Assembly (NCBI RefSeq): GCF_026240635.1
Contig: NZ_CP110848.1
Location: forward strand, 188,501-252,500
From: Trichothermofontia sichuanensis B231
GTDB taxonomy: Bacteria; Cyanobacteriota; Cyanobacteriia; B231
DNA: 64,000 nucleotides
Reading direction: 5' to 3'
The notes beneath the pieces were generated by a model. That model was not told the origin of the DNA. It worked only from the letters and a program-made list of their open reading frames with translations, and searched no databases. The translations under genes and the position numbers were made by a program. This document shows positions 14,724 through 61,961 of this stretch, one piece after another; position 1 is the stretch's first letter; the number at the start of each line of letters is the position of its first letter.

Positions 14724-14999
14724 TACAGTCTTTACCTCAATCATCAAGTACAGTTTTATCTGGCTAGAATGGGGGCCGCCCACGGGTGTGGCTCTCACCC
14801 CGTGAGAAAAGGGGGTGGGAGAAAAGGGCTGCCGCTCGGATCCCAATCCAAACCTTATAGATAGTCGTTGCAATTTAGATTCAAACAGCGCCCTCACCCC
14901 CAGCCCCTCTCCCAGCGCGGGAGAGGGGAGTGAAAAACTGTATCGTTCTTATTGGGATTGACCATAATGGTGTACTGCGTCAATTAGGTAAAGGCTGTA
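14724..14999 (+). mobile_element. Family A repeat element with nested family B (copy A1)
   Basis: The left end is TACAGTCTTTACCT and the right end AGGTAAAGGCTGTA, terminal inverted repeats with one mismatch. The interior shares TCAATCATCAAGTACAGTTT and the GC-rich CCCTCACCCC stretches with other A copies. The copy is longer than the 225-bp type because a family B unit (14856-14967) is inserted at the TTA after CCAATCCAAACC. It has no coding capacity, which suggests a non-autonomous element. It lies between bcp and hemC and downstream of hemC. Confidence 0.8.
14856..14967 (+). mobile_element. Family B repeat element (copy B1), nested in A1
   Basis: It begins TATAGATAGTCGTTGCAATTTAG and ends GGATTGACCATAA. 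The core hairpin CCCTCTCCC-AGCGC-GGGAGAGGG is followed by AGTGAAAAACTGTATCGTTCTTA, shared with the other five B copies. TA lies on both sides, consistent with a TA target duplication. Confidence 0.7.
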
Positions 15000-17426: not shown

Positions 17427-17554
17427 AAATCCCTGGCTCTCCTGAGTTTATGGTGGGGGCGCGTAGCGCCCCCACCATAAACTCAACGTTTCCGATCGTT
17501 TATTTGTAGTTGCTGATACTGTTTACCCCAAAATCCCAGAAGAGCCAAATCCCT
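17427..17554 (+). mobile_element. Family C MITE-like element (copy C1) with 8-bp target duplication
   Basis: The element itself is 17435-17546, exactly 112 bp. It starts GGCTCTCCTGAG and ends CCCAGAAGAGCC, imperfect terminal inverted repeats. It is flanked on both sides by the same 8 bp, AAATCCCT (17427-17434 and 17547-17554), a clean target-site duplication. Inside lies a 41-bp palindrome with a 19-bp perfect stem (arm GCGCCCCCACCATAAACTC) and a GTA loop. It has no coding capacity. It differs from C2 at one base only. The 8-bp duplication and GGCTCTT-type ends recall ISL3-family transposition, an inference only. Confidence 0.92.
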
Positions 17555-17579: not shown

Positions 17580-17687
17580 TATAGCCATTACAATTTAGGC
17601 TGAAACAGCACCCTCACCCCCAACCCCTCTTCCAGAGCGGGAGAGGGGAGTGAAAAACTGTATCGTTCTTATTTGGATTAACCATAA
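17580..17687 (+). mobile_element. Family B repeat element (copy B2)
   Basis: It begins TATAGCCATTACAATTTAGG and ends GGATTAACCATAA, with the core CCCTCTTCC-AGAGC-GGGAGAGGG hairpin. Solitary copy, not inside an A element. Confidence 0.75.
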
Positions 17688-24187: not shown

Positions 24188-24315
24188 TGTTTTGCGGCTC
24201 TTCTAAGATTTGGGTGTAAACAGTATAAGCGACTACTAATAAACGCTCTTAAATGTTGAGTTTATGGTAGGAGCGCGTAGCGCCCCCACCATAAACCCAG
24301 AAGAACCGTTTTGCA
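24188..24315 (-). mobile_element. Family C MITE-like element (copy C3)
   Basis: The element is 24196-24307, again exactly 112 bp but inverted relative to C1 and C2. It begins GGCTCTTCTAAG and ends CCCAGAAGAACC. The flanks share GTTTTGC (24189-24195 and 24308-24314), a partly decayed target duplication. Its inner hairpin has several mismatches, so it is older than C1 and C2. It lies downstream of apcC, where the hairpin could protect or terminate the apc mRNA. Confidence 0.85.
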
Positions 24316-26461: not shown

Positions 26462-26752
26462 TACAGCCTTTACCGCAATCATAAAGTACAGTTTTACAGA
26501 GGTAGGATGGGGGCAGTCCACTGGTGCGGCCCTCACCCAAGTGGAGAGAAGGGGTTGGGGAATGAGGGCAACCAGTAGGATCCAGATCCAAACCTTAACT
26601 GTGTACTGATTGGCTCTCCTGAGTTTATGGTGGGGGCGCGTAGCGTCCCCACCATAAACTCAACGTTTCCGATCGTTTATTTGTAGTTGCTGATACTGTT
26701 TACCCCAAAATCCCAGAAGAGCCTACTGATTTAAATTAGCTAGAGGCTATAT
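26462..26752 (+). mobile_element. Family A element (copy A2) split by insertion of C2
   Basis: The left end is TACAGCCTTTACC followed by GCAATCATAAAGTACAGTTTTAC. The interior runs to CCAAACCTTAACTGTGTACTGATT (ends 26611). After C2, the right end resumes at 26724 as TACTGATT-TAAATTAGCTAGAGGCTATAT, which lines up with the intact right end of A3. Without C2 and one duplicated 8-mer, A2 would be a continuous A element. This orders the insertions: A2 first, C2 later. Confidence 0.85.
26604..26731 (+). mobile_element. Family C MITE-like element (copy C2) with 8-bp target duplication
   Basis: The element is 26612-26723, 112 bp. It is flanked by the perfect duplication TACTGATT (26604-26611 and 26724-26731). 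Ends are GGCTCTCCTGAG and CCCAGAAGAGCC. It differs from C1 at a single position (a T for a C in the inner hairpin loop-side arm), so it has moved recently. Orientation is as C1. Confidence 0.92.
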
Positions 26753-26778: not shown

Positions 26779-26883
26779 ATGGTCAATCCAAATAAGAACG
26801 ATACAGTTTTTCACTTCCCTCTCCCGCTCTGGGAGAGGAGCTGGGGGTGAGGGGGCTGTTTCAGCCTAAATTGCAATAACTAT
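26779..26883 (-). mobile_element. Family B repeat element (copy B3)
   Basis: Inverted copy: begins ATGGTCAATCCAAATAAGAAC and ends AATTGCAATAACTAT. The core GAGAGG hairpin is present. It is close to the right end of A2 but not inside it. Confidence 0.75.
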
Positions 26884-26913
26884 CTCTAGCTTTATATAGC
26901 ACGCAGATCTTTC

Positions 26914-46821: not shown

Positions 46822-47172
46822 TACAGCCTCTGCCTCACGCATAACGTACAGTTTGACCGGGGTAGGATGGGGGCACCCCCCTAGTGCGACCTTCACCCTC
46901 AATCCCTCTCCTAGAGCGGGAGAGCAAGGGGCTTGCAAATTCGGCACCCCTCTGCCACCTCCCCCCGTAAACGGGGGCTAGGAGATGAGGGCTGCCGGTA
47001 GGATCCAGATCCAAACCTTAACCATGTACTACTTATAGCTATTACAATTTAGGCTGAAACAGCCCCCTCACCCCCAGCCCCTCTCCCAGAGCGGGAGAGG
47101 GGAGTGAAAAACTGTATCGTTCTTATTTGGATTGACCATAACCGTGTACTAAGTCAATTGGATAAAGACTAT
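46822..47172 (+). mobile_element. Family A/B composite element (copy A4)
   Basis: The left end is TACAGCCTCTGCCTCACGCATAACGTACAG (diverged) and the right end GGATAAAGACTATA. A complete B unit (47034-47141) is embedded. Sequence after B (CCGTGTACTAAGTCAATTGG) repeats part of that before B (CCATGTACTAC), so the copy is a mosaic, perhaps by recombination between a plain A and an A with B. Total about 351 bp. It sits downstream of tkt. Confidence 0.75.
47034..47141 (+). mobile_element. Family B repeat element (copy B4), inside A4
   Basis: Begins TATAGCTATTACAATTTAGG and ends GGATTGACCATAA. Nearly identical to B1, B2 and B6 in the core. Confidence 0.75.
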
Positions 47173-56081: not shown

Positions 56082-58565
56082 CTACTTCACCTGGGCCACA
56101 TCCATCACTGTATCCATCAAGCCGCTATCCGGCGACTCCACCTTGGCGATATCCAGGATTGTCTTGAGCACGGAATCCGGGTTCAGACTCATGGAGTCAA
56201 TGCCTTCTGCCACCAGGAAGCGGGCAAATTCCGGATAGTCACTGGGGGCTTGACCGCAGATGCCGATCTTGCGGTTGTACTTCTTGGCCGCTTTGAGGGC
56301 AATCTGCACCATGCGCTTGACAGCCGTATTGCGCTCATCAAACAGGTGGGCCACCAAGGCCGAGTCACGATCGAGACCCAAGGTTAACTGGGTCAGGTCA
56401 TTAGAGCCGATCGAGAAGCCATCAAAGACTTCAGCAAATTCATCGGCATTGATGACATTGCTGGGCAGTTCGCACATCACATACACTTGCAGGCCATTTT
56501 CGCCCCGCTTCAGCCCATGCTTGGCCATTTCCGCCAACACCCGCCGACCTTCCTCTGGGGTGCGGCAGAAGGGAATCATCGGGATCACATTAGCCAGCCC
56601 CATTTCGTCACGGACCCGCTTCATCGCCAGACATTCTAGGGCAAAGGCATCGCGATAGCGCTCATCGTAATACCGCGAGGCACCCCGCCAGCCAATCATT
56701 GGGTTTTCTTCCTCTGGCTCGAACTCCCGACCACCCAGCAGACTGGCATACTCGTTGCTCTTGAAGTCGGACATACGGACGATCACCGGCTTGGGATAGA
56801 AAGCGGCCCCGATCGTCCCAATTCCCTGGGCCAGCTTGTCAACAAAGTACTGGGGCTTGTCCTCATAGAGAGCCGTCAGTTCTGCAATCTTGGCTTTGGC
56901 ATACTGATCCTTCAGTTCATCGAACTTGACCAAGGCCAACGGGTGAACCTGAATATGGTTGGCAATGATGAATTCCAACCGGGCCAGCCCAACGCCATCA
57001 TTGGGGATCATGGACAGACTAAAGGCTTCTTCCGGGTTACCCACATTCATCATGATCTGGGTACGAGTTTCCGGCACGTTGTCCAGGGGTGTTTCTTCCA
57101 CCTCAAACTTGAGCAGCCCTTCGTAGACCTTGCCTTCATCCCCTTCGCAACAAGAGATCGTGACATCTTGGCCCGTCTTGACATCCGTCGTTGCCGTACC
57201 GCAACCGACGATCGCTGGAATCCCCATCTCACGGGCAATAATCGCCGCGTGGCAGGTGCGTCCGCCCTGGTCGGTCACGATCGCGCTGGCCTGCTTCATA
57301 ATCGGTTCCCAATCCGGGTCAGTCCGGGTGGTGATCAGAACCTCACCCGGCTTGAAGACATCAATCTCATTGACACTCATGATCACCCGCGCCTTGCCCT
57401 GACCGATCGCTTCACCGACACTACGGCCACTGGTCAGTACGTTCGAGTGCTCCAGCAAGTGATAGGACCGCAAGACGCTCTGGTTCTTCTGGGACTGTAC
57501 CGTTTCCGGGCGAGCTTGAACGATGAACAGTTCACCCGTCACCCCATCCTTAGCCCATTCAATATCCATTGGGGTGGGCGTCCCGCGCACGGTGGAGTAG
57601 TGCTGCTCAATTTGGCAGGCCCATTTGGCCAATTGCAAAATTTCATCGTCGTTGATGGCATAGCAATTCCGCTCTGCTGGGGGAACCGCCACATTCTTGG
57701 TATGCTTGGTGCCACCTTCGTCGTAGATCATTTTGATCTCTTTCGTGCCCAAGCGCTTCGAGAGAATGGGCCGGAAGCCTTCTTGCAGCGTCGGTTTGAA
57801 GACAAGGAACTCATCCGGGTTGACCGCCCCCTGCACCACATTTTCACCCAAACCGTAGGCAGCCGTAATCAACACCGCGTTGCGGAAGCCCGTTTCCGTG
57901 TCAATTGAGAAGATGACCCCGGAAGAAGCTAAGTCAGAGCGGACCATCTTTTGTACCCCCACCGACAGGGCAACTTCAAAGTGGTCGAAGCCCTTGATCG
58001 TGCGGTAGGAAATGGCGCGATCAGTGAACAGGGAGGCAAAGCACTTGTGGCAGGATTCCAACACTGCCTTCGCACCGTGGACGTTCAGGTAGGTTTCCTG
58101 TTGACCGGCAAAGCTAGCATCGGGCAAATCTTCCGCCGTGGCACTGGAGCGCACGGCCACATCCGTGTTCTTGCCATAGCGATCACACATCCGGGCATAG
58201 GCTTGCACGATCGCGTCTTCCAGGGGTTTCGGGAACGGGGTTTGCCGAATCAGTTGACGGGCTTGTTTGCCGTGTTCGCGCAGGTTTTGGACATTTTCCA
58301 CATCCAGATCGGCAAAGATCCGGCGCAGTTCATCCTCAATCCCGGCTTCTTGAATGAAATAACGGAACGCGTAGGCCGTCGTGGCAAACCCATCAGGGAC
58401 ATTGACCCCCTTGGGAGTCAACTGCTGAATCATTTCACCCAACGAGGCATTTTTGCCCCCCACCTGCGGAATATCCGCAATACCCACTTCCTGAAACCAG
58501 AGGATCAGAGCGGTGTCTTTCGAGGCAGGGCTGGTTGAGGTTTCGCGAGAAGGTGTTTGAACCAT
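56082..58565 (-). CDS. ppsA: Phosphoenolpyruvate synthase
   Basis: Start is the ATG at 58565 (MVQTPSRETSTSPASKDTALILW), with GGAG seven bases upstream. The 827-residue enzyme converts pyruvate, ATP and water to PEP, AMP and phosphate. The catalytic His is in DQGGRTCHAAIIAREMGIPAIVGCG. The N-terminal ATP-grasp domain carries VRSSATAEDLPDASFAGQQETYLN, and the C-terminal PEP/pyruvate domain has MCELPSNVINADEFAEVFDGFSIGSNDLTQLTLG and ICGQAPSDYPEFARFL. Full length. Confidence 0.96.
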   Translation of the reverse strand: MVQTPSRETSTSPASKDTALILWFQEVGIADIPQVGGKNASLGEMIQQLTPKGVNVPDGFATTAYAFRYFIQEAGIEDELRRIFADLDVENVQNLREHGKQARQLIRQTPFPKPLEDAIVQAYARMCDRYGKNTDVAVRSSATAEDLPDASFAGQQETYLNVHGAKAVLESCHKCFASLFTDRAISYRTIKGFDHFEVALSVGVQKMVRSDLASSGVIFSIDTETGFRNAVLITAAYGLGENVVQGAVNPDEFLVFKPTLQEGFRPILSKRLGTKEIKMIYDEGGTKHTKNVAVPPAERNCYAINDDEILQLAKWACQIEQHYSTVRGTPTPMDIEWAKDGVTGELFIVQARPETVQSQKNQSVLRSYHLLEHSNVLTSGRSVGEAIGQGKARVIMSVNEIDVFKPGEVLITTRTDPDWEPIMKQASAIVTDQGGRTCHAAIIAREMGIPAIVGCGTATTDVKTGQDVTISCCEGDEGKVYEGLLKFEVEETPLDNVPETRTQIMMNVGNPEEAFSLSMIPNDGVGLARLEFIIANHIQVHPLALVKFDELKDQYAKAKIAELTALYEDKPQYFVDKLAQGIGTIGAAFYPKPVIVRMSDFKSNEYASLLGGREFEPEEENPMIGWRGASRYYDERYRDAFALECLAMKRVRDEMGLANVIPMIPFCRTPEEGRRVLAEMAKHGLKRGENGLQVYVMCELPSNVINADEFAEVFDGFSIGSNDLTQLTLGLDRDSALVAHLFDERNTAVKRMVQIALKAAKKYNRKIGICGQAPSDYPEFARFLVAEGIDSMSLNPDSVLKTILDIAKVESPDSGLMDTVMDVAQVK

Positions 58566-61853: not shown

Positions 61854-61961
61854 TATAGTTATTGCAATTTAGGCTGAAACGGCACCCTCACCCCCAGCCC
61901 CTCTCCCGCTCTGGGAGAGGGGAGTGAAAAACTGTATCGTTCTCATTTGGATTGACTATAA
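61854..61961 (+). mobile_element. Family B repeat element (copy B6)
   Basis: Begins TATAGTTATTGCAATTTAGG and ends GGATTGACTATAA. The ends pair as TATAGT.../...ACTATA, the best example of the family's imperfect inverted ends. Core hairpin CCCTCTCCCGCTCTGGGAGAGGGG intact. Confidence 0.78.

Follow-up and report, generated by a model that had tools for sequence, protein, structure and literature searches.

Three copies of a 112-bp repeat, each flanked by a short direct duplication, lie in a 64-kb stretch of the chromosome of Trichothermofontia sichuanensis B231, and raise the question of what kind of element they are, what moved them and what has altered them since. The host is a thermophilic cyanobacterium from a hot spring with one circular chromosome of 4,436,989 bp and 53.9% GC (PMC10172474). 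The stretch analysed, hereafter the window (G000:C1:188501-252500, on the single contig of 4,436,989 bp of host genome G000), also has a GC content of 53.9%. As argued below, the repeat is very probably a non-autonomous MITE of the ISL3 family that spread in trans and was later altered by loop inversion and by recombination between copies.

Three copies in the window

A preliminary description had placed the copies at 17435-17546, 24196-24307 and 26612-26723, at exactly 112 bp each, with two perfect 8-bp duplications and one of 7 bp; coordinates, lengths and duplications were all confirmed. The annotated features are as follows.

17435..17546, + strand: MITE copy 1, subfamily A, 112 bp, loop GTA, 100% identical to five copies elsewhere in the genome
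17427..17434, no strand: copy 1 target duplication (left), 8 bp, AAATCCCT, from sequence
17547..17554, no strand: copy 1 target duplication (right), 8 bp, AAATCCCT, from sequence
17443..17485, + strand: copy 1 hairpin, 20-bp stem and 3-nt loop, starting inside the terminal repeat
17497..17546, - strand: copy 1 far end, homologous to the ISL3 left end, from alignment
24196..24307, - strand: MITE copy 2, older, divergent and inverted, ~83% identical to copy 1
24189..24195, no strand: copy 2 target duplication (left), 7 bp, GTTTTGC, exact repeat
24308..24314, no strand: copy 2 target duplication (right), 7 bp, GTTTTGC, exact repeat
24257..24299, - strand: copy 2 hairpin, loop TAC, imperfect stem
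26612..26723, + strand: MITE copy 3 of subfamily A, differing from copy 1 by one substitution
26604..26611, no strand: copy 3 target duplication (left), 8 bp, TACTGATT, from sequence
26724..26731, no strand: copy 3 target duplication (right), 8 bp, TACTGATT, from sequence
26620..26662, + strand: copy 3 hairpin, loop GTA

Two other details needed correction. The first and second copies had been said to differ at one base; such a pair does exist, but it is formed by the copies at 17435 and 26612, whereas the 24196 copy is the inverted, divergent one, with a left end that reads GGCTCTTCTAAG. The hairpin, previously given a 19-bp stem, measures 20 bp with a 3-nt loop. It is confined to one end of the element, the opposite end being a different sequence.

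The element has the ends GGCTCTYCTGAG / GGYTCTTCTGGG and carries no transposase gene, and with terminal inverted repeats and a length below ~600 bp it falls within the usual bounds of a MITE. A GGTTCTTCTGGG match at window position 57482 was considered as a further family copy and discarded as a chance match, having neither the hairpin nor the partner end. Another repeat family, ~107 bp long and bounded by TATGGTCAATCCAAATAAGAACGA / TATAGTCATTGCAATTTAGGCTGA, is also present in the window (14861-14967, 17581-17687, 26779-26888, 47034-47140 and 61854-61960). One copy of this second family sits at a TA dinucleotide inside an ISL3-type element in L130, suggesting that the ~107-bp family is an IS630/Tc1-like MITE.

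Copy number, target duplications and insertion sites

The genome contains 286 occurrences of the end motif GGYTCTYCTGRG but only 2 of the reversed control pattern, so the three window copies are not a product of chance. Two exact 21-base hairpin-end patterns were found at 57 and 57 places genome-wide, giving at least 114 copies with an intact hairpin-side end. Two main recent subfamilies, A and B, stand out, with 29 and 45 copies, respectively, that are identical outside the loop. The 112-bp MITE had no match in plasmid and phage collections. Beside the 112-bp copies, four longer elements (L115:1001-1396, L130:1001-1217, L140:1001-1210, L151:1001-1366) end in the same sequences, are flanked by near-perfect 8-bp duplications and enclose further genomic repeats, which makes them nested or captured DNA. 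At L012:1501-1770, one young and one old family copy lie in opposite orientation at most 30 bp apart.

A perfect 8-bp duplication flanks 75 of the 99 young A/B-type 112-bp copies, the remainder having an exact 7-bp duplication (2), a near match (3) or none (19). In a partial set of 88 copies of 88-114 bp, 63 perfect 8-bp duplications represented 63 distinct sequences, L007 adding a 64th, and the target sequences were A+T-rich (66%). A target duplication of fixed length that differs at each site is one of the features expected of a MITE. Insertion was mostly intergenic: an ORF of at least 100 aa is interrupted at 10 of 67 insertion sites, compared with 78% of random window positions. Some copies nonetheless split genes, as became apparent when the two flanks of an insert were searched separately. 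In a DUF3137 gene, the part before the insert matches profile positions 2-26 and the part after it 45-139; in a DDE_Tnp_1 transposase gene, the corresponding matches cover positions 31-113 and 149-200. For Uma2, just one side of the insert matches the profile, and a copy in a LemA gene is located immediately before the domain. Paralogous copies, target duplications and split genes, as read from the sequence, support movement of the family, and the many copies identical outside the loop, together with the gene-splitting insertions, support the earlier claim that transposition was recent.

One alternative is a REP/ERIC-like palindrome that was spread by an unrelated mechanism and is retained because it serves the host, for instance in transcription termination, mRNA stability or nucleoid binding. 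Such a role would be compatible with the strength of the hairpin (z about -8), the intergenic bias and the maintenance of stem pairing through compensatory changes. REP/ERIC-type repeats, however, are short palindromes without target duplications, unlike the 75 of 99 young copies described above; in addition, the ends of the present element match those of ISL3, and some of its copies split genes. No T-run follows the hairpin, and no Rfam match was found in the 64-kb stretch. We consider this explanation very unlikely.

Relationship to ISL3 elements

An autonomous ISL3 insertion sequence encodes a DDE transposase (PF01610 / NF033550), for which 112 bp leaves no room; the element is an ISL3 derivative and not an IS. 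The outer ~45 bp at the far end of the MITE align with ISL3 left ends, including that of the resident locus L031, and the alignment has GGCTCTTCTGGG-TTTTGGTGTAAAC.GTATA in common over ~45 bp. GGCTCTT-like terminal repeats and 8-bp duplications are likewise found both in the MITE and in complete ISL3 elements. Contigs of Phormidium (L044) and Lyngbya (L045) carry complete 1248-bp ISL3 elements with duplications GAGTTTGG and CACAGCAG, genome G032 has complete elements of about 1.23 kb with GGCTCTCCTGAG ends and 8-bp duplications, and G007 has ISL3 elements with GGCTCTCTGGG ends and duplications of 8 bp and, once, 7 bp. The preliminary description had guessed at an ISL3-type transposase and proposed a search for a transposase gene bordered by the ends of the element. 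Such genes, with GGCTCTTCTGGG/GGCTCTCCTGAG ends and 8-bp duplications, are present in other cyanobacteria and lend the guess support; in the host, the search finds only the remnant L031. Because the ends are homologous over ~45 bp with ISL3 left ends, an origin from ISL3 with mobilisation in trans is the natural inference.

A second cyanobacterium, G007, which belongs to another family, carries 112-bp copies built in the same way, with no more than 82% identity, several of them with target duplications, along with an intact 384-aa ISL3 transposase that is 61-72% identical to the resident remnant. Across 291 genomes of the class, a covariance-model search returned no strong members outside G000 and G007; G020 contributed a single decayed copy. 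Weaker matches came mostly from taxa f23 and f24, and 12 of the 13 loci inspected were rejected as unrelated GC-rich hairpins without the ends. Genomes of f23 and f24 contain many recurring long perfect hairpins with cores GGCGGCGC..GCGCCGCC, which are unrelated to the MITE.

The route that we favor would run as follows. One side of the element would have kept about 45 bp of the ISL3 left end, and on the other side an ISL3-type terminal repeat would have been turned into one arm of the 20-bp-stem hairpin. Acting in trans, a DDE transposase of the ISL3 family would have recognised the two GGCTCTYCTGRG-like ends, and copies would have inserted mostly into intergenic DNA, generating target duplications of 8 bp and sometimes 7 bp. 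Through such insertions the family would have reached 100+ copies, with two main recent subfamilies; the sole ISL3 transposase gene of the genome is today a truncated remnant that itself contains a MITE.

Alternatively, the MITE could have been mobilised by an intact transposase that belongs to a different family and is encoded in this genome, the ISL3-like ends being coincidental. The genome indeed has no intact ISL3 transposase, yet its young copies are nearly identical. Coincidence, however, would have to account for homology to the ISL3 left end that extends over ~45 bp, beyond the terminal repeat, and for a duplication length (8, occasionally 7) that equals that of ISL3 elements in relatives, which makes this proposal highly improbable.

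The resident ISL3 transposase

The sole ISL3 transposase (PF01610) of the genome lies at 3,638,855-3,639,560, in locus L031, and scores above the cut-off for PF01610 and below it for NF033550. Its left end, GGCTCTTCTGGGTTTTTGGTGTAAA, directly follows a MITE-type hairpin (L031:939-988). A 112-bp MITE with the duplication TGACTTAT (L031:1762-1873) cuts the gene, and no ISL3 coding sequence was found beyond this insert. The remnant has no parental right end to which the hairpin side of the MITE could be assigned. A search of the single-chromosome assembly turned up no intact ISL3 transposase that might have driven the recent burst. Since the resident transposase is both truncated and interrupted by a MITE copy, current mobility is doubtful, and without an outside supply of transposase the family is probably immobile at present.

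At L031:1490-1530 the transposase lies in two frames, with the break near an A-run. A plain frameshift is not the preferred explanation, since the Phormidium/Lyngbya relatives L043-L045 have a frame break after codon 150, at the same place as L031; the G007 transposase in L051 is in one frame. The lineage of L031 and L043-L045 may use a programmed frameshift.

Loop alleles and stem covariation

Within subfamily B, the loop reads TAC in 27 of the copies that are otherwise identical and GTA in 18; the corresponding numbers in subfamily A are 23 and 6. Both loop orientations are also present in the older divergent copies, and copies in G007 have the loops TCA and TGA. Because GTA is the reverse complement of TAC, inversion of the loop is a simpler account of the difference than three substitutions. 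The number of independent flips could be lowered by gene conversion, if hairpins have passed between A and B in this way. A further qualification comes from the assembly, a Nanopore/DNBSEQ hybrid (PMC10172474): short-read polishing can shift alleles between repeats, so that repeats may have been homogenised and loop alleles scrambled.

Two-sided compensatory changes were found at 8 of 20 stem pairs, a number reached by 0 of 500 shuffles; this shuffle control is inflated by the relatedness of the sequences, though sliding controls also fell well below. Template switching at hairpins can yield both loop inversions and compensatory changes (PMC8794818), and small inversions at hairpins are known from chloroplast DNA (PMC12371153, a review). 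Because one such process can produce both, the covariation is not taken here to prove selection on an RNA. The loop alleles point to inversion of the hairpin after insertion, which would most simply occur through template switching when the palindrome is replicated. Two 59-bp palindromes (L182:1001-1059 and L155), in which the hairpin end faces itself and target duplications are absent, are compatible with template switching at the hairpin. One possible extension, which we put forward tentatively and regard as somewhat less probable than its negation, is that the hairpin flips often in the living cell through replication template switching; each copy would then be a natural reporter, and the covariation a by-product of one arm rewriting the other.

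Probable recombination between copies

Subfamilies A and B are told apart by seven diagnostic sites, and six copies are block chimeras of the two (L030, L097, L126, L135, L160 and L180). Target duplications are absent in all six, compared with 10 of 84 pure copies (Fisher p = 1.3e-5, with L180 included, whose flanks agree at 5 of 8 bases and could represent a duplication that has mutated). Since gene conversion would not remove duplications, the chimeras look like crossovers that joined the flanks of different copies; homologous recombination between inserted copies would have exchanged their flanks. It is also conceivable that the duplications were lost through gene conversion combined with independent point mutation, without crossing-over, and the lack of any reciprocal flank pair among the 19 duplication-less copies speaks for this. 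Conversion alone, however, would leave duplications intact, and exact or near duplications are kept by 74 of the 84 pure copies and by none of the chimeras; we judge this alternative unlikely. Under crossing-over, the absence of reciprocal partners fits deletions better than inversions, as a deletion between direct copies leaves one product only.

Comparison with known systems and implications

This kind of element is already known, as a 187-nt MITE of Microcystis aeruginosa PCC 7806 is a direct precedent, with GGCTCTTCG ends, 8-nt repeats, assignment to ISL3 transposases and new insertions between strains (PMC11448079). The two share imperfect ISL3-type ends (starting with GGCTCTTCG in Microcystis), 8-nt direct repeats, a stem-loop, dozens of identical copies and a mostly intergenic distribution with some insertions in genes. 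They differ in length (187 nt versus 112) and copy number (~33 versus 100+), and Microcystis has ISL3 transposase genes with matching ends, whereas only a remnant is present here. With the 1248-bp ISL3 insertion sequences of Phormidium and Lyngbya, the MITE shares the terminal sequence, a subterminal box GGTGTAAA..TGTATA and the 8-bp duplications; those elements encode a transposase, whereas the MITE has no gene and has a hairpin. Nezha (Zhou et al. 2008, as cited in PMC10969869) is an active cyanobacterial MITE that is alike by that description, and no kinship is claimed. As in chloroplast hairpin inversions (PMC12371153) and template-switch loop inversions (PMC8794818), the loop is reverse-complemented between arms that stay complementary, but here this recurs among the many copies of a single bacterial transposable element. 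To these systems the present family adds the scale of its burst next to a resident transposase that is dead, loop alleles that differ by inversion, and an association of chimerism with the loss of duplications.

A family of 100+ copies in a thermophile whose ISL3 transposase is broken and itself bears a MITE is a case in which the parasite appears to outlive its engine. Its near-identical copies form a clean natural dataset, where loop orientation varies and almost all else is constant, and a missing duplication flags those copies at which the chromosome has recombined. Should flips turn out to be frequent, hairpin covariation in repeated DNA should not count as proof of RNA function.
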